Both the position numbers and the translations under genes were made by a program. Positions 1 through 22,734 of a stretch of 64,000 bases of DNA are shown piece by piece; the first letter of the stretch is position 1; each line of letters begins with the position of its first letter. The notes beneath the pieces are model-generated. The model had not been told where the DNA came from. It saw only the letters and a program-made list of their open reading frames with translations, and ran no database searches. The stretch is from Gallionella sp. (GTDB taxonomy: Bacteria; Pseudomonadota; Gammaproteobacteria; Burkholderiales; Gallionellaceae). The stretch spans positions 826,326 to 890,325 of the forward strand of contig JAQVVH010000001.1 in assembly GCA_028699065.1 (NCBI GenBank). The letters run 5' to 3'.

Positions 1-26
1 GGCGTGTCATGCATTTTCTTGGCCAT
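1..26 (-). CDS. Partial 5' end of a minus-strand gene, possibly dsrA (reverse dissimilatory sulfite reductase alpha)
   Basis: Only the first codons are inside the window. Reading leftward from 26 gives MAKKMHDTP, preceded by AGGAAA about five bases upstream of the ATG, a good ribosome-binding site. DsrA proteins of sulfur oxidisers start similarly (H-x-T-P a few residues in, as I recall it from Allochromatium), and the neighbouring genes belong to Dsr/Tus sulfur metabolism. Nine residues cannot prove identity. That a gene starts here is fairly sure; that it is dsrA is inference. Confidence 0.45.
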
Positions 27-319
27 AATATTTCCTTTCAATCATGTTGCGCCGGGGCTTTCCGTCGGCGGGAATGGAATCGGGGTATGGGTTCTGGCCT
101 TCACGGCACGACCCAGTTTCTTGATGGTTCCGCATGGTACGTTGCGAAATCAGCGGCAACTATCACCCAGAGCGGGTAGACAAAGTAACCCCAAAGGGGG
201 GGCCTATCACTACCACCAGTAGTATTCCAAATATGCACCGCTTACCGCTAGACTTGCAACATTCATTCAGACTGCCCTAGCTTTCCCCCTAGAAGGCGGT
301 CGATTTCCGGAGTAATGGC
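27..319. promoter_or_regulatory. Divergent intergenic control region with a YAACCC-N4-GGGG motif
   Basis: This stretch separates the cut minus-strand gene from the operon starting at 320. I see no convincing gene; the short plus-strand frame from 4 to 222 has no family signal and overlaps the divergent start. At 186-199 lies TAACCC-CAAA-GGGG, followed by more G. The same TAACCC half-site recurs before sat/soeA and upstream of tusA. An operator role is inference. No clear sigma-70 promoter was recognised. Confidence 0.4.
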
Positions 320-547
320 GTGGCGAATATCACAGAACTCGACAAAATAACGGTTCCTCTCGGGGGCCAGCAGATCGAATTACAACAGATCGACCACGCT
401 GAAGACGGCATGAGTTTGCTGCGCATCCGCATCCGCGAAGGTAAACGCTTCACCATTTTCGACATCGACCCAGCCACAGCCGCGCGCTGGGCGGCCGGCA
501 TGCAAAATTGGGCCGAACAACAATCCCAGGACGCACCCACCGCATGA
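320..547 (+). CDS. Small conserved 75-aa protein, DUF6967-like, first gene of the Cas6-like/DsrC-like operon
   Basis: A short acidic-basic protein without signal peptide, membrane segment or cysteine, so probably cytoplasmic. The GTG start at 320 is chosen because GGAG lies seven bases upstream and the only nearby ATG, at 315, is in another frame. It resembles the small DUF6967-type proteins I associate with this gene neighbourhood in sulfur oxidisers; that assignment is from memory. Its stop overlaps the next start (ATGA), so the two are probably translationally coupled. Function unknown. Confidence 0.7.
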   Translation: MANITELDKITVPLGGQQIELQQIDHAEDGMSLLRIRIREGKRFTIFDIDPATAARWAAGMQNWAEQQSQDAPTA

Positions 548-1128
548 TGATCGACGTCGCCTTCAGCGTTCGCGGCGAAACACTCCCGCCCGCCTACCCC
601 TTTGCACTGTGGAAAGCGCTGCTGGCGCGACAGCCCGCTCTCGCCAACATTGAACACTTGGCCCTGCTGCCCATGCGCACAGCGCCCGGTCGGGGCGAAG
701 TCATTTTGTCGGGACGCTCAAAACTTGCCCTGCGGGTGCCGGAAGCTGACGTGGCGCAAGTTTCCGAACTCGCCGGGACGGCATTTGAAATCGGCGGTCG
801 CCCCTTATTGCTGGGGAACGCCACAACCCGCGCTTTGCAACCTTACCCGACGCTGCACGCGCATCTGGTGCACAGTCTCGAGGAGGAAACCGCCTTCATT
901 GCCAGCATTCAGTCGGCGCTCGCGGCGCTGGGTATCGAAGCCCCGCTGATTTGCGGCCGTCATCAGCGGTTGGCCGATGGCGAACAGGCTGTCCAGGGCT
1001 ACAGTCTGGTGGTCCACGATCTCAAGCCCGATGCTTCCATGCAGCTGCAAGGCGTGGGGCTGGGCGAAAACCGTTTTTTAGGGTGCGGCGTTTTCATGCC
1101 GTATAAAGTCATCTCCGGACTGGAGTGA
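544..1128 (+). CDS. Stand-alone Cas6/Cmx6-like (type I-MYXAN) RAMP protein
   Basis: The 194-residue product resembles the MYXAN-subtype Cas6 family (Cmx6) along its length. It has the N-terminal beta strand followed by RGETLP, a central strand-rich part, and the C-terminal glycine-rich loop GCGVFMPYK at residues 180-188, typical of Cas6 ferredoxin-like folds. Cas6 proteins cut CRISPR precursor RNA. Here there is no repeat array and no other cas gene in 64 kb. As I recall them, classical members carry a histidine just after the LP motif; here it reads LPPAYPFALW, so RNase activity is doubtful. Start: ATG 544 overlaps the previous stop; ATG 547 is also possible. It sits between a small unknown gene and a DsrC-like gene, suggesting a role in sulfur metabolism or RNA thiolation rather than immunity (inference). 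Confidence 0.75.
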   Translation: MMIDVAFSVRGETLPPAYPFALWKALLARQPALANIEHLALLPMRTAPGRGEVILSGRSKLALRVPEADVAQVSELAGTAFEIGGRPLLLGNATTRALQPYPTLHAHLVHSLEEETAFIASIQSALAALGIEAPLICGRHQRLADGEQAVQGYSLVVHDLKPDASMQLQGVGLGENRFLGCGVFMPYKVISGLE

Positions 1129-1148
1129 CATTTTAACTGGGAGGCAAT

Positions 1149-1478
1149 ATGGGATACGTAGTGAATGGTACTGAGCTCGAAACCGATGCGGACGGCTTTC
1201 TGCTGGAACCCGATTACAGTGACGAAATCATCGGCGTCATCGCCGCAGCCGAAGGCATTGAAATGACCGACAAGCACATGGAAATTATCAACTACATGCG
1301 CAATGAGTATCGCGAAAACGGCCACACCCCGAATTTCCGCAACATGCTCAAGGGCGTCAATGAATTTTGGCCGGAAGCCGACAGCAAGGCCCTGTATGAT
1401 TTGTTCCCGACCGGGCCGGCCAAGCAGGCTGCAAAGATTGCCGGACTGACCCAGCCCTATGGCAAGGGCGGCTATTAA
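1149..1478 (+). CDS. DsrC/TusE-family protein lacking both C-terminal cysteines (RspA-like)
   Basis: The 109-residue protein has the DsrC/TusE fold signature, with DGFLLEP near residue 15 and LFPTGPAKQAAKIAGL at 85-100. DsrC carries a cysteine where this has Ala95 and a second as its penultimate residue; this tail ends YGKGGY, and the whole protein contains no cysteine. It therefore cannot carry persulfide or a trisulfide as DsrC does. Such cysteine-less members have been grouped as RspA and proposed to be regulatory. GGGAGG precedes the ATG. It is followed ten bases later by the tandem TusA gene, a classical partner of TusE/DsrC. Confidence 0.9.
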   Translation: MGYVVNGTELETDADGFLLEPDYSDEIIGVIAAAEGIEMTDKHMEIINYMRNEYRENGHTPNFRNMLKGVNEFWPEADSKALYDLFPTGPAKQAAKIAGLTQPYGKGGY

Positions 1479-1487
1479 GGAGTCATC

Positions 1488-1964
1488 ATGAACATGGTAA
1501 ACGTCGTACTCGACATGAAGGGGCTGTCCTGCCCGAAACCCCTGCTCGGCGCCAAACGCATGGTCGATGAGCTCGCGCCCGGCCAGGTGCTGGTGCTGAT
1601 TTCGGATTGCCAGGGCACGCCGGACGACCTGTTCGCCTGGGCGGAATTGACCGGCAACCAAGTCATCAAGTCCGAAAAACAGGCCGACGGCAGCACGGGC
1701 TATCACATCCAGAAGGGTAGCCCCACCAGCCGCCCCGCCGCACAGGTTTCGCTCGATATTCGCGGCTCGGTCTGCCCTGGCCCGATCGTCGAAGCAAAGA
1801 AACTGCTGAACGGCATGCAGGCCGGCGAGATTCTGAAACTGGTCAGCGATTGTCCCGGCGTGCAGTCCGACATCAGCGGCTGGGCAGCAGCCACCGGAAT
1901 GACGCTGCTCGATATGCTGGAACCCGCTGCCGGAGTGCACGAGTTTTACATCCGCAAGGGCTGA
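1488..1964 (+). CDS. Tandem TusA-TusA sulfurtransferase
   Basis: Two complete TusA domains lie in one 158-residue chain. Domain 1 (about 1-77) has CPKP with the sulfur-carrying Cys15; domain 2 (about 84-158) has CPGP with Cys96. Each also keeps a second cysteine in an SDC motif (Cys41 and Cys122). TusA proteins pass persulfide sulfur to TusBCD/E or DsrEFH/C. A fusion would bring two sulfur carriers side by side. Strong AAGGAG precedes the ATG. Placement right after a cysteine-free DsrC homologue suggests the pair work together, but as what is unknown. Confidence 0.9.
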   Translation: MNMVNVVLDMKGLSCPKPLLGAKRMVDELAPGQVLVLISDCQGTPDDLFAWAELTGNQVIKSEKQADGSTGYHIQKGSPTSRPAAQVSLDIRGSVCPGPIVEAKKLLNGMQAGEILKLVSDCPGVQSDISGWAAATGMTLLDMLEPAAGVHEFYIRKG

Positions 1965-1967
1965 TCG

Positions 1968-2564
1968 TTGCGCATCAAAAGTCACTGGTTTCGCGAAGGC
2001 CGCAGTCACGGGCCGCAGGAAGTTTCCGACGCACTGGCTTTCGTGTTGTGGAAAATTTCAGACAATGCGCTGAAAAATACCCGCAACGCGGATTTTTCGA
2101 TTGAGGTCGGCGAGCAATATCTGGATTTTCTCGGCGAGGTGTTGTTTTTCCTGATTCTGGTTGCCGACCGCCTGGCCTATCGCCGCCTTTCCGCAGAAGA
2201 TCGCGCCCTGTTCACCGGCAACCTCGCCAATCGTGTGGCCGCCACCTATGCCGAAAATCGCGGGCGTTTGCTTGCGCGCGATGAAGCGGGTTGCAAGCAG
2301 GCATTCATCGACCGGCTCAATCGGCGCGCGGGCGAATATGCCGATTTTGATTACACCGACGCCGGCCCGGATTATGGCTTTTACCGCTACCTGGCCTATT
2401 GCATCGGCGAAATTTTGAACGACGCCGACAGCTTCTGGATCACCGACCAGATCGTCACGCTGGAAGCGCCGGAAATGGTGCGCATGATCGAAAAAACCGT
2501 GCGCGACCTGTTCGAAAGCGAACCGCGCGAACCCCGCCGGCGGCGCGGCAGCAGCGGGGAATAA
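1968..2564 (+). CDS. Conserved hypothetical protein, 198 aa, fifth gene of the operon
   Basis: I do not recognise a characterised family. The start is a TTG three bases after the previous stop. The protein looks mostly alpha-helical, with a hydrophobic stretch around residues 45-65 (YLDFLGEVLFFLILVADRLA) that could be a buried helix or a weak membrane segment, and a strongly basic tail (RRRRG). Only two cysteines occur. The tail abuts the next start, so it belongs to the same operon as the Cas6-like and DsrC-like genes. No function is proposed. Confidence 0.75.
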   Translation: MRIKSHWFREGRSHGPQEVSDALAFVLWKISDNALKNTRNADFSIEVGEQYLDFLGEVLFFLILVADRLAYRRLSAEDRALFTGNLANRVAATYAENRGRLLARDEAGCKQAFIDRLNRRAGEYADFDYTDAGPDYGFYRYLAYCIGEILNDADSFWITDQIVTLEAPEMVRMIEKTVRDLFESEPREPRRRRGSSGE

Positions 2565-3434
2565 ATGCCCGGCCTGTTTGACCTGAACGACACCGAAGCC
2601 TATCTGCGCTGGCGGGAAGCAAAGCTTGCGTGCGCCCCCGCCTCTCCGCAGGAACTCATCGTCGACGTCCGCGATCCCCGTGCGCTCAGCCCCGCCGAAC
2701 ACACCGCACTGGCCGACTGCATCCGGCACTGCAATATGGCCATTTATGCCAGCCCGCTGCTTGAAGCCGATAGCGACATCCCACGCCTGCTGGGGCGTCA
2801 GTTCGGGCTGAAACAACTCGACGCCAACTGGCTGGCCGGCGAGGATGGCATCTCGGAAATTCAAATCGCCGCTAACGGCACACGGCAAAGCTACATTCCC
2901 TACACCGACAAACCGATCAAGTGGCACACCGACGGTTACTACAATCCGCCGGGACGGCAAATTCGCGCCATGATTCTGCATTGCGTCCGCAGTGCAGCCA
3001 AAGGCGGCGACAACCGCCTGATGGATCATGAAATGGCTTATCTGCGGCTGCGCGATGACAACCCGGAACACATTCGCGCGCTGATGCAACCGGACGCCAT
3101 GACCATTCCGCTGCGCGACGATGAACGAGACGGCATTCGCGAAGCCCAGAGCGGGCCGGTATTTTCGCTGGATACCGCGGGAAATCTGCATATGCGCTAC
3201 ACCGCCCGCACACGCAGCATTGAATGGAAAAATGATGGCGCAACGCGAGATGCCGTCGCCGCACTGGAACATGTGCTGGCTGCCGAGACGCCGGATGTTT
3301 TTGCCGCTCACCTTGCGCCCGGCATGGGTCTGCTCTGCAACAACGTGCTGCATGACCGCAGCGCGTTTACCGATGATGCAGCTTCGCCGCGATTGCTTTA
3401 TCGGGCGAGGTATTTGGATCGGATTGCTGGCTAA
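2565..3434 (+). CDS. TauD/TfdA-type Fe(II)/2-oxoglutarate-dependent dioxygenase
   Basis: The 289-residue protein keeps the iron facial triad of this family: His121 and Asp123 in WHTDGYY and distal His263 in LHDRSAF. Arginines near 276-280 in RLLYRAR are placed to bind 2-oxoglutarate. TauD itself releases sulfite from taurine; other members oxidise sulfonates, sulfate esters or unrelated substrates, so the substrate here is not known. The ATG immediately follows the stop of the previous gene and a hairpin terminator follows the stop, marking it as the last gene of the operon. A role in releasing sulfite from an organic sulfur compound is possible but inferred. Confidence 0.85.
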   Translation: MPGLFDLNDTEAYLRWREAKLACAPASPQELIVDVRDPRALSPAEHTALADCIRHCNMAIYASPLLEADSDIPRLLGRQFGLKQLDANWLAGEDGISEIQIAANGTRQSYIPYTDKPIKWHTDGYYNPPGRQIRAMILHCVRSAAKGGDNRLMDHEMAYLRLRDDNPEHIRALMQPDAMTIPLRDDERDGIREAQSGPVFSLDTAGNLHMRYTARTRSIEWKNDGATRDAVAALEHVLAAETPDVFAAHLAPGMGLLCNNVLHDRSAFTDDAASPRLLYRARYLDRIAG

Positions 3435-20846: not shown

Positions 20847-22070
20847 ATGAGTAACCCGCATGGCCTGACCGGAAAATCTTCCGGCGGCGTTTTCTTTTGG
20901 ACGCGCGAGCCAGAGTTTTTACCGCCCGAGCAAAACGGTGGTATCGACACCTGTGTCGAGATGGAATTCATTACCGCCGCCCCGAGTGAACTCGAAACCC
21001 TGCTCAACTCAACGCTTGAAGCCATGACAACCCTCGCTCATGCGCAGGCTGGGGTTATTCGGGTCCTGCTGCCGGACGAGGAAACCTTGCAAGTCATTTC
21101 CGCCATCGGCCTGTCCCGCGAGGATCTCGAGGCTGAACGTTTTGTCGAACTCGCTTGCGAAAACTGCCCCAAGGATGCGTTCATGCACGGATTGTGTTCC
21201 ACCAACATTCCGGATTGTGAGTCGCGCCAAGGGCGCTCGCACCGCCAGCTGCAATCGGTCATCTCCGTACCGCTGCAGAGCAGGCAGGCGCCGGAAAACT
21301 TATTGGGCGTTTTTACCCTGTTTTTTAACACCCCGCAGTCACGCTCCGGGCAGACAGCCAATCTGGCAATTGCCTTGGCCGAAATGCTCGGCGGTATCAT
21401 CGAACACGCCCGCGCCAGCCGCGAGGCACGCCGTGCCGAAATGCTAATGGAGCGGCAATCCATAGCCAATGAAATTCACGACTCTCTTGCTCAAACGCTG
21501 AACTACGCCCGCATGAACACCACATTGCTGCGCAGTGCCTTGCGGCGAAACGACCCCGAGATGGCAAGCCAAGCTTCCCAGGACATCGAAGACGCGCTGG
21601 AAATCGGGCAGAAAGCCGTGCGGGCGCTGATCACGGATTTCCGCAGCGAAATGGACCCAGCGGGGCTGCTGCATGCCCTGGAATTGCTGGTACGCGAATT
21701 TCGCAAACAAAACCGTATCGTGCTGGATTACACGATCCGGGTGGCCGACCTGGATTTGCCGCTAGAGCATGAAATCCAGTGTTATCTGATCGTACGCGAA
21801 GCGCTTTCGAATATCGCCAAGCATTCCAATGCCAGTCATGCCCGGCTGATCGTTGATTACAACTTCGGGTATTATGTGTTCACCATCGAGGACAATGGCG
21901 CGGGGACCTTTTCTCCGGTCGAGGGCCATTATGGCATCGTGATCATGCGCGAGCGGGCACAACATATCGGCGGCGAAATTCGCGTCGACAGCACCAAGGG
22001 ATTGGGAACCAGCGTTCAACTGTATTTTCCCGATCCAGAATCCAACTGGAGGAAGCTGCATGACCGATGA
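20847..22070 (+). CDS. Soluble NarX/NreB-like sensor histidine kinase with GAF domain
   Basis: 407 residues with no membrane helix. A GAF-like sensor (about 45-185) is followed by a HisKA_3 dimerisation helix with phospho-acceptor His211 in NEIHDSLAQTL and a HATPase domain (N-box in REALSNIAKHSNAS, G-box in EDNGAG). Inside the GAF domain four cysteines (104, 107, 117, 124; C-x2-C-x9-C-x6-C) could bind an iron-sulfur cluster or act as a thiol switch. The start is uncertain: ATG 20847 lacks a clear ribosome-binding site, and Met39 is an alternative. It overlaps the response regulator and precedes sqr. Confidence 0.88.
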   Translation: MSNPHGLTGKSSGGVFFWTREPEFLPPEQNGGIDTCVEMEFITAAPSELETLLNSTLEAMTTLAHAQAGVIRVLLPDEETLQVISAIGLSREDLEAERFVELACENCPKDAFMHGLCSTNIPDCESRQGRSHRQLQSVISVPLQSRQAPENLLGVFTLFFNTPQSRSGQTANLAIALAEMLGGIIEHARASREARRAEMLMERQSIANEIHDSLAQTLNYARMNTTLLRSALRRNDPEMASQASQDIEDALEIGQKAVRALITDFRSEMDPAGLLHALELLVREFRKQNRIVLDYTIRVADLDLPLEHEIQCYLIVREALSNIAKHSNASHARLIVDYNFGYYVFTIEDNGAGTFSPVEGHYGIVIMRERAQHIGGEIRVDSTKGLGTSVQLYFPDPESNWRKLHDR

Positions 22071-22734
22071 ATTAAAAATTGCCCTGGTGGATGACCAATG
22101 CCTGTGCCGCAAAGGCTTGAGCGAGTTACTGTCGCGCTGCTATGGTTTCAACGTCCTGGGCGCGGTCGGCACGCTGGAGGAGCTACGAGCACTGGTTGCC
22201 CAACGACCCGATCTGCTGATTCTGGATCTGCGCATGAAGCCCATGGATGGCTTGGGCATGCTGGAACAGATTCGCGCTGATGGCTGTGAAATTCCGGCGC
22301 TGATCCTGACGATGAGCGATTCTGAAATCGATCTCGGCAATGCCATCCGTGCCGGGGCCCGCGGCTATCTGCTCAAGGACATGGCCCCCGAAGAAGTCGT
22401 TGATGCCATCAGGCGTGTGGCGGCCGGCGAACTGGTTGTTGCCCCCAGCATGACCGTAAAAATGATTGATATGCTGCGCGGCGACCAGTCCGACGCGGAA
22501 CCCAAGAACTCCCTCAAGCTGCTGACCGAGCGCGAACGCGAAATACTGCAATTGCTCTCGCGCGGCGAAAGCAACAAGGCAATCGCCCAAACCCTGTCGA
22601 TCAGCTACGACACTGTCAAGCAACATGTCCGGCATATTCTGAACAAACTGAATTTGTCTTCACGCGTCAAAGCGGCCGTGCTGTTTGCCAAGGAACAGGG
22701 CGTCACGCTATCCGAAGAAGAACCCCGGCGCTGA
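22060..22734 (+). CDS. NarL/FixJ-type response regulator
   Basis: 224 residues: a receiver domain with acidic pair Asp11/Asp12, phospho-acceptor Asp56, Thr84 and Lys106, then a LuxR-type helix-turn-helix (LTEREREILQLLSRGESNKA to about residue 205). It overlaps the kinase gene by 11 bases, so the two are cognate. sqr begins 30 bases after its stop, which makes sqr co-transcribed with the pair and a likely target. Confidence 0.93.
   Translation: MTDELKIALVDDQCLCRKGLSELLSRCYGFNVLGAVGTLEELRALVAQRPDLLILDLRMKPMDGLGMLEQIRADGCEIPALILTMSDSEIDLGNAIRAGARGYLLKDMAPEEVVDAIRRVAAGELVVAPSMTVKMIDMLRGDQSDAEPKNSLKLLTEREREILQLLSRGESNKAIAQTLSISYDTVKQHVRHILNKLNLSSRVKAAVLFAKEQGVTLSEEEPRR

Follow-up and report, generated by a model that had tools for sequence, protein, structure and literature searches.

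A Cas6-family protein encoded divergently from dsrA in Gallionella: a probable CRISPR-free lineage linked to sulfur oxidation

The window analysed here, a stretch of 64,000 nucleotides from Gallionella sp. (contig JAQVVH010000001.1), encodes near its start a 194-amino-acid (aa) protein of the Cas6/Cmx6 family, here called Cas6l. Cas6l very probably represents a Cas6 lineage that is free of CRISPR (clustered regularly interspaced short palindromic repeats) and dedicated to the dsr genes of reverse-Dsr (rDsr) sulfur oxidation, and the recruitment of a Cas6-fold protein to this process is well supported. The TIGR02807 profile labels such genes as CRISPR Cas6; in the related genomes searched, they are a near-perfect marker of reverse-Dsr sulfur oxidation. 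Family, fold, fixed divergent position, separation from CRISPR relatives and purifying selection are all shown by sequence; the mechanism is inferred. Our favoured reading, held with a confidence somewhat short of even, is that Cas6l left CRISPR and became a dedicated non-nucleolytic adaptor in an rDsr accessory module, where it would control the flow of sulfur to DsrAB. If confirmed, this would mean that a CRISPR protein family has been permanently turned into part of energy metabolism. Term searches found no open-licence paper tying Cas6 to dsr, and the passages on Cas6 in the papers retrieved that also cover dsrC and sulfur oxidation all concern CRISPR systems.

Association of Cas6l with dsrA

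Cas6l and dsrA were searched separately in a first set of 101 related genomes. Cas6l was found in 40 genomes, dsrA above the cut-off in 39, both in 38 and neither in 60; dsrA was thus present in 38 of the 40 Cas6l genomes against one of the 61 others (Fisher test, 3e-24). The mismatches between the two distributions lie in G074, where dsrA is in pieces that score under the cut-off, and in G032 and G060, where contigs end. Two genomes with two dsr loci (G011 and G059) each carry two Cas6l genes, giving 42 in all, a count that leaves out a weak partial 43rd match (G059:C62, E 8e-4). For 41 of these genes, a divergent dsrA lies 482–809 bp away, measured between matched stretches and, for G024 and G074, from a part of dsrA. 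The contig of the remaining gene (G032, L018) appears to end about 400 bp upstream. Conversely, 41 of the 42 listed dsrA loci have Cas6l on the same contig, and the contig of the 42nd (G060) ends 30 bp past dsrA. In G042, only dsrB and a scrap of dsrA are present at a contig end.

A second set comprised 398 genomes drawn from the phylum. TIGR02807 proteins were retrieved from five of them, all dsrA-positive, and U198, a further protein encoded in the same run of genes, was detected in the same five. dsrA itself was found in 53 genomes at E <= 1e-40 (52 over the cut-off). The five TIGR02807-positive genomes are all the dsrA carriers of the window's order in this set, and no TIGR02807 protein was found in the other 48 dsrA-positive genomes among the 398 searched.

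Gene neighbourhoods were compared in 109 loci, consisting of the best 80 of 421 stretches from a scan of a genome collection and 29 regions from the two genome sets. Proteins of the dsr-linked group typically end in P[YH]K; the scan pattern includes this end and therefore favours them. The two subsets also overlap, L055/L066 and L054/L098 carrying identical proteins, and stem partly from the same genomes as the set of 101. dsrA is divergent from Cas6l in all 104 loci that reach it (75 of the 80 scan loci and 29 of the 29 others); in the remaining five, the sequence upstream of Cas6l is no longer than 1063 bp. The scanned loci belong to Sulfuricella, Thiobacillus, Sulfuriferula, Hydrogenophilales and the like. 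The preliminary description of this DNA had considered that the homologues might be scattered with respect to sulfur genes. They are not, given the divergent dsrA in every locus that extends far enough and the narrow range of distances.

Fold, sequence changes and relation to CRISPR

Profile searches place Cas6l above the cut-offs of TIGR02807 (141.4 bits against 98.85, E 3e-41) and PF09559 (167.7 bits against 26.7, E 4e-49), and the motifs RGETLP and GCGVFMPYK are present. A structural model, built from a 75-sequence alignment, reached a predicted local distance difference test (pLDDT) score of 91.5. In Foldseek searches it matched 8fcu_B, the Cas6 of a type I-B CRISPR-associated transposon (CAST) complex, with a template modelling (TM) score of 0.90 (E 2e-16), followed at lower TM by Pyrococcus Cas6 and Thermus Cse3. 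The model predicts the double ferredoxin-like fold of repeat-associated mysterious proteins (RAMP). Since both families and the model point to Cas6, we regard Cas6l as a Cas6-family protein with a RAMP fold. The Cas6 features noted in the preliminary description are thereby borne out: a missing profile match or fold would have refuted it, and both were found.

Residues were compared between 110 dsr-linked proteins (21 of the window's family set and 89 others) and five CRISPR relatives. The glycine-rich loop (Gly172, 174, 180 and 182) is present in 109–110 of the 110 dsr-linked proteins and in all five CRISPR proteins. Lys188 (110 of 110), Gly138 and Glu115 (109 of 110 each) are peculiar to the dsr-linked proteins and absent from the five. 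A conserved N-terminal His, found in all five CRISPR relatives, is replaced by Tyr18 in the window protein and by Tyr in 20 of the 21 proteins of its family set; in the 89 others, the same position holds His in 61, Asn in 22 and another residue or a gap in six. In other Cas6 proteins this His is catalytic, and in this branch it may be so too. In the solved structure 8fcj, Cas6 has Asn aligned at the same position, so the loss of His alone is no proof of lost cleavage. Charge also differs: the whole-protein net charge of the window Cas6l is -3 (isoelectric point, pI, 6.1), and the mean is -2.8 in the 21 proteins of its family set and -0.3 in the 89 others, against +6 to +10 in the five CRISPR relatives, whose pI ranges from 9.3 to 9.6.

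The ratio of nonsynonymous to synonymous substitution rates (dN/dS) of Cas6l has a median of 0.11 in 40 close pairs (range 0.05–0.60) and lies at 0.08–0.25 in the 12 closest pairs of its own clade; the value for dsrA is 0.06. By these ratios, Cas6l is under purifying selection. A thiol switch formed by Cys137 and Cys181 was considered and dropped: Cys181 is shared with CRISPR proteins, Pro stands in place of Cys137 in 10 of the 110 dsr-linked proteins, and the strand order of the model suggests that the two residues are probably far apart.

No CRISPR array was detected in the window or in loci L036–L145 (at least three exact 20-mers at 45–90 bp spacing), and the neighbours of Cas6l are dsr and sulfur genes, not adjoining cas genes with an array. 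Cas1 occurs in 20 of the 40 Cas6l genomes and in 20 of the 61 others, which is no significant link (p 0.10). The absence of an array or another cas gene, as first described, holds for the window by array search but not for the genome. On another contig, Cas1 (PF01867) lies beside a 1055-aa open reading frame (ORF) that reads as Cas9-like (G000:C10, L152 8311-12411), next to an array of 34 repeat copies with a mostly 66-bp period (from L152 12815). In addition, the contig that carries Cas6l has, about 25 kb upstream of the gene (G000:C5:801278, L153 14953-15103), three perfect 29-bp repeats that enclose two identical 32-bp spacers; this element resembles a type I-E array and may be a relic or something else.

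The TIGR02807 profile is an equivalog model for CRISPR Cas6, and together with the Cas9-like/Cas1 locus and the three-repeat element it could suggest that Cas6l is an ordinary CRISPR Cas6 serving arrays elsewhere in the genome in trans. We consider this extremely improbable. Half of the Cas6l genomes (20 of 40) have no Cas1 match, searches of the Gallionella genome itself matched neither PF08798 (Cas6e) nor PF09344 (Cse4), nor Cas3 over the cut-off, Cas9 systems are not known to use Cas6, and the linkage to dsr is fixed.

Six plasmid relatives were retrieved, all cyanobacterial, five of them inside I-MYXAN cas operons and one not. A tree of 57 rows places 51 dsr-linked proteins on one side of a branch with a Shimodaira–Hasegawa-like approximate likelihood ratio test (SH-aLRT) value of 99; the tree was made by a quick method, rooted at the midpoint, and includes one poorly filled row, two long rows and these six cyanobacterial relatives. 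On this tree, the dsr-linked proteins group together and are separate from CRISPR Cas6. The tree gives no direction of change, and CRISPR would be the older role of the family. Cas6l shares with I-MYXAN Cas6/Cmx6 and type I-B CAST Cas6 (8fcj/8fcu) the TIGR02807 profile, the fold and the GxGxxRxxGCGxF loop, but differs from them in lacking cas genes and an array at its locus, in being acidic to neutral, and in its place beside dsrA; from the five CRISPR relatives it is further set apart by its own Lys188, Gly138 and Glu115 and, in the window's clade, by the lost His. A Cas6/Cmx6 protein of Gloeobacter (L147) resembles Cas6l in being annotated with TIGR02807 without annotated cas genes nearby, but unlike the window protein it keeps the His and a basic charge (+7), and no dsr gene is annotated. 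On the Gloeobacter morelensis plasmid pGMOR1 (L147 8974-12237), cas6 is followed by hypothetical, phosphoadenosine phosphosulfate (PAPS) reductase-family and cupin genes. This plasmid Cas6 is a possible second exaptation.

The accessory module and the candidate role of Cas6l

The six genes of the run were recovered on the forward strand by an ORF check at 320–3434, with the overlap of the DUF6967 and Cas6l genes by ATGA (544–547), the Cys-free DsrC homologue, the TusA-TusA fusion and the TauD-like gene all as first described (Table 1). The first bases of the window belong to the minus-strand gene dsrA, and the rDsr operon continues beyond the window edge (L036), which is why dsrA was not visible in the preliminary description. 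Between the two divergent start codons, that of dsrA and that of the six-gene run, lie 293 bp.

Table 1. Features at the start of the window, with positions in the window
Feature	Position	Strand	Evidence and remarks
dsrA 5' end	1..26	-	start codon 26-24; TIGR02064 492.8 bits, contig match 825071-826321 (G000:C5)
promoter/operator-like block, conserved	160..257	.	lies between two divergent operons
DUF6967 protein, 75 aa, GTG start	320..547	+	PF22295 E 3e-30
Cas6l, Cas6/Cmx6-family, 194 aa	544..1128	+	TIGR02807 141.4 bits, PF09559 167.7 bits
DsrC-like protein, no Cys	1149..1478	+	PF04358 E 5e-32; end GKGGY instead of PTGCV
TusA-TusA fusion	1488..1964	+	PF01206 in 2 stretches, E 4e-37
U198, all-helical, TTG start	1968..2564	+	no family assigned
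TauD-like Fe/2-oxoglutarate dioxygenase	2565..3434	+	PF02668 E 3e-17

Across the 109 loci, homologues of the partners were found in 102 (DUF6967), 106 (DsrC-like protein), 106 (U198), 83 (TauD) and 22 (TusA-TusA). The three loci without U198 have at most 1212 bp downstream. In the inspected loci L066 and L115, TusA-TusA is replaced by a two-domain rhodanese with a CGSGVTA loop. CPxP is the active-site motif of TusA, and the two halves of the window fusion carry one copy each (CPKP and CPGP). No family was found for U198 in Pfam, NCBIfam or PADLOC, and its model (pLDDT 84.4) returned no PDB match at E <= 0.001 in Foldseek. In G080, DUF6967 and Cas6l are naturally fused in frame (L056 9728-10615), which argues for contact between the two proteins.

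The DsrC paralogue scores above the cut-offs of PF04358 and TIGR03342. Aligned with the DsrC of the same genome, it is missing both DsrC cysteines, and thus the redox Cys pair of sulfur-carrying DsrC, and has no Cys at all; no persulfide would therefore be carried on Cys. The GKGGY end is found in 105 of the 106 paralogues of Cas6l loci. The window protein could still enter the DsrAB channel. RspA is a label for Cys-free DsrC relatives, one that may apply to the window protein.

Part of the module is more widespread than Cas6l. DUF6967 was detected in 10 of the 398 phylum genomes: the five Cas6l carriers and five others, all dsrA-positive, the latter without TIGR02807. In all five genomes without TIGR02807, a TauD-like gene adjoins DUF6967 (L189–L194); the pair is divergent to dsrA in four and lies on a contig other than that of dsrA in the fifth. 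The TauD-like genes that accompany rDsr in G202, G288, G329, G341 and G387 match the TauD profile of the Cas6l loci at E <= 2.4e-96. Neither gene was found in six further dsrA regions outside the order (L195–L200). Because TauD and DUF6967 occur with dsr in genomes without Cas6l, they look like an older and wider pair, to which Cas6l and U198 would have been added in one order. A gene that reads as CysG-like follows TauD/DUF6967 in L190–L192, with a further 74-aa ORF between them in L190.

The name dsrQ is in use for a TauD-like gene that diverges from dsr, and its description is credited to Lenk et al. 2012 in a passage that mentions a speculated role in sulfonate breakdown (PMC7596348). The window TauD-like gene likewise lies upstream of dsr on the opposite strand; this likeness is one of described position. 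In the window, dsrA and the TauD gene are separated by the genes for DUF6967, Cas6l, the DsrC-like protein, TusA-TusA and U198, and the dsrQ passage names none of these intervening genes except a tusA-like gene replacing tauD in two genomes (PMC7596348). The word cas6 is absent from the main text of that paper.

Three points lead us to favour the adaptor reading: the partners of Cas6l are sulfur proteins; the more widespread part of the module also occurs where no TIGR02807 protein is present; and Cas6l has lost its net basic charge and, in the window's clade, the His. Cas6l would be a cytoplasmic, non-nucleolytic adaptor that works together with U198, DUF6967 and the DsrC paralogue and acts, at the level of proteins, on how sulfane sulfur flows into DsrAB. 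Its Cas6 fold would offer a binding platform rather than a nuclease for CRISPR RNA (crRNA). The DsrC paralogue may use its GKGGY arm to plug or regulate DsrAB, the candidate sulfur donor would be TusA-TusA or the rhodanese, and TauD would be an oxygen- and 2-oxoglutarate-dependent enzyme. The whole would be an accessory addition to rDsr in one order of Pseudomonadota. Defining Cas6l, U198, DUF6967 and the DsrC paralogue as accessory proteins provides a handle on the control of sulfur flow into rDsr.

Several observations weigh against this reading or against the strict linkage on which it draws. The glycine-rich loop, Arg64 (109 of 110) and Arg177 (106 of 110) hardly vary, a feature shared with CRISPR Cas6 that would be consistent with nucleic-acid binding having been kept. 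The genomes are related, so the counts are not independent events. G074 has a stray second dsrA (G074:C13, L209 1997-3384), with no dsrB and no Cas6l within the 6 kb read. The module itself varies: three of the 109 loci have no DsrC paralogue, six loci with about 10 kb upstream have no DUF6967 match, and no TauD was found in 26, of which four have less than 1.6 kb downstream. In L044, L056, L058 and L063, the DsrC-like gene directly adjoins that of U198, leaving no room for TusA-TusA or rhodanese. A Cys occurs within the last 108 residues of 33 of the 106 DsrC paralogues, so that the Cys-free state is not general.

Such differences in the other partners between lineages would also be expected if Cas6l were a hitch-hiker that does little in a locus kept by its useful neighbours. 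This is very improbable given dN/dS values of about 0.1–0.2 and the presence of Cas6l at every listed dsrA locus but the one at a contig end, the stray dsrA of G074 standing outside that list. The RNA-thiolation side branch suggested in the preliminary description, in which Cas6l would hold RNA and the TusA and DsrC-like proteins would bring sulfur, agrees with the matches of these partners to TusA and DsrC/TusE profiles. It is improbable nonetheless: the window DsrC paralogue has no Cys, and tRNA thiolation needs a PP-loop ATPase, a family to which none of the six proteins had a match in profile searches.

Intergenic region and RNA-based alternatives

The main rival to the adaptor reading is that Cas6l, together with DUF6967, is an RNA-binding regulator that sets the amount of Dsr protein through the dsr transcript or its own, perhaps cutting it where the His is kept. 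It owes this place to the conserved loop residues and to the position of the gene beside dsrA. We consider it possible but less likely than the adaptor. The predicted Cas6 fold, the retained glycine-rich loop with Arg64 and Arg177, the His kept in 61 of the 89 proteins outside the window's family set, and the divergent location next to dsrA, with which the gene shares a conserved intergenic block, are all consistent with it; the loss of basic charge in both dsr-linked groups and of the His in the window's clade speaks against it, as does the intergenic region itself.

An alignment of the 21 intergenic regions of the window's own family shows a block of spaced ACCC-N4/5-GGGT dyads together with a TAGACTT element. 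Among 98 related intergenic sequences, whose relatedness inflates the counts, TACCC-N4-GGGTA gave 83 matches against 13 in resampled sequences (75 of 98 loci) and TACCC-N5-GGGTA 134 against 13 (80 of 98 loci), both at <=2 mismatches, whereas other gap lengths gave 24–43 against 11–14. The copies in the window (165–178 and 187–200) are degenerate, with three mismatches, and were not returned at <=2. Where looked at, dyad copies lie 22–24 bp apart. No covarying RNA hairpin was found between dsrA and DUF6967 in the 21 own-family regions: for the two strands, RNAalifold energies were -2.9 and -3.8 kcal/mol and the covariation terms -0.06 and +0.73, values that lend no support to the idea that Cas6 processes a dsr leader hairpin. 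RNA hairpins were rejected in favour of DNA operators as an explanation of the dyads, because of the lack of covariation and the spacing of the copies. The block as a whole looks, from its sequence, like shared operators and promoters. Energies were near zero and z-scores meaningless for dsrA-dsrB, the regions upstream and downstream of dsrC, the region between Cas6l and the DsrC-like gene, and that downstream of TauD; the window contains no Rfam family at gathering score.

The proposal that an RNA-binding fold was recruited to a sulfur-linked process therefore stands as to recruitment outside CRISPR, and action on RNA is not supported so far. RNA regulation of dsr, in particular, is disfavoured by the lost basic charge and the missing covarying hairpin, yet the loop, Arg64 and Arg177 are kept. 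In its full form, that of a Cas6 lineage exapted into lithotrophic sulfur oxidation and still binding RNA as an rDsr-dedicated riboregulator independent of CRISPR, we hold it to be rather unlikely.

The upstream minus-strand rDsr operon reads, from its proteins, as dsrA, B, H, C, M, K, L, J, O, P and N, with letters assigned from family features; dsrA rests on TIGR02064 and DsrC on a match, and E and F were not separately read. ORFs downstream in the window read as encoding FadL-like, DsrE-like, TusA, SulP, SoeABC, Sat and Apr proteins. At 20847–22734, the window also encodes what reads as a GAF-type histidine kinase and a LuxR-family response regulator. As a mere guess, this pair would be a candidate reader of the intergenic dyads.

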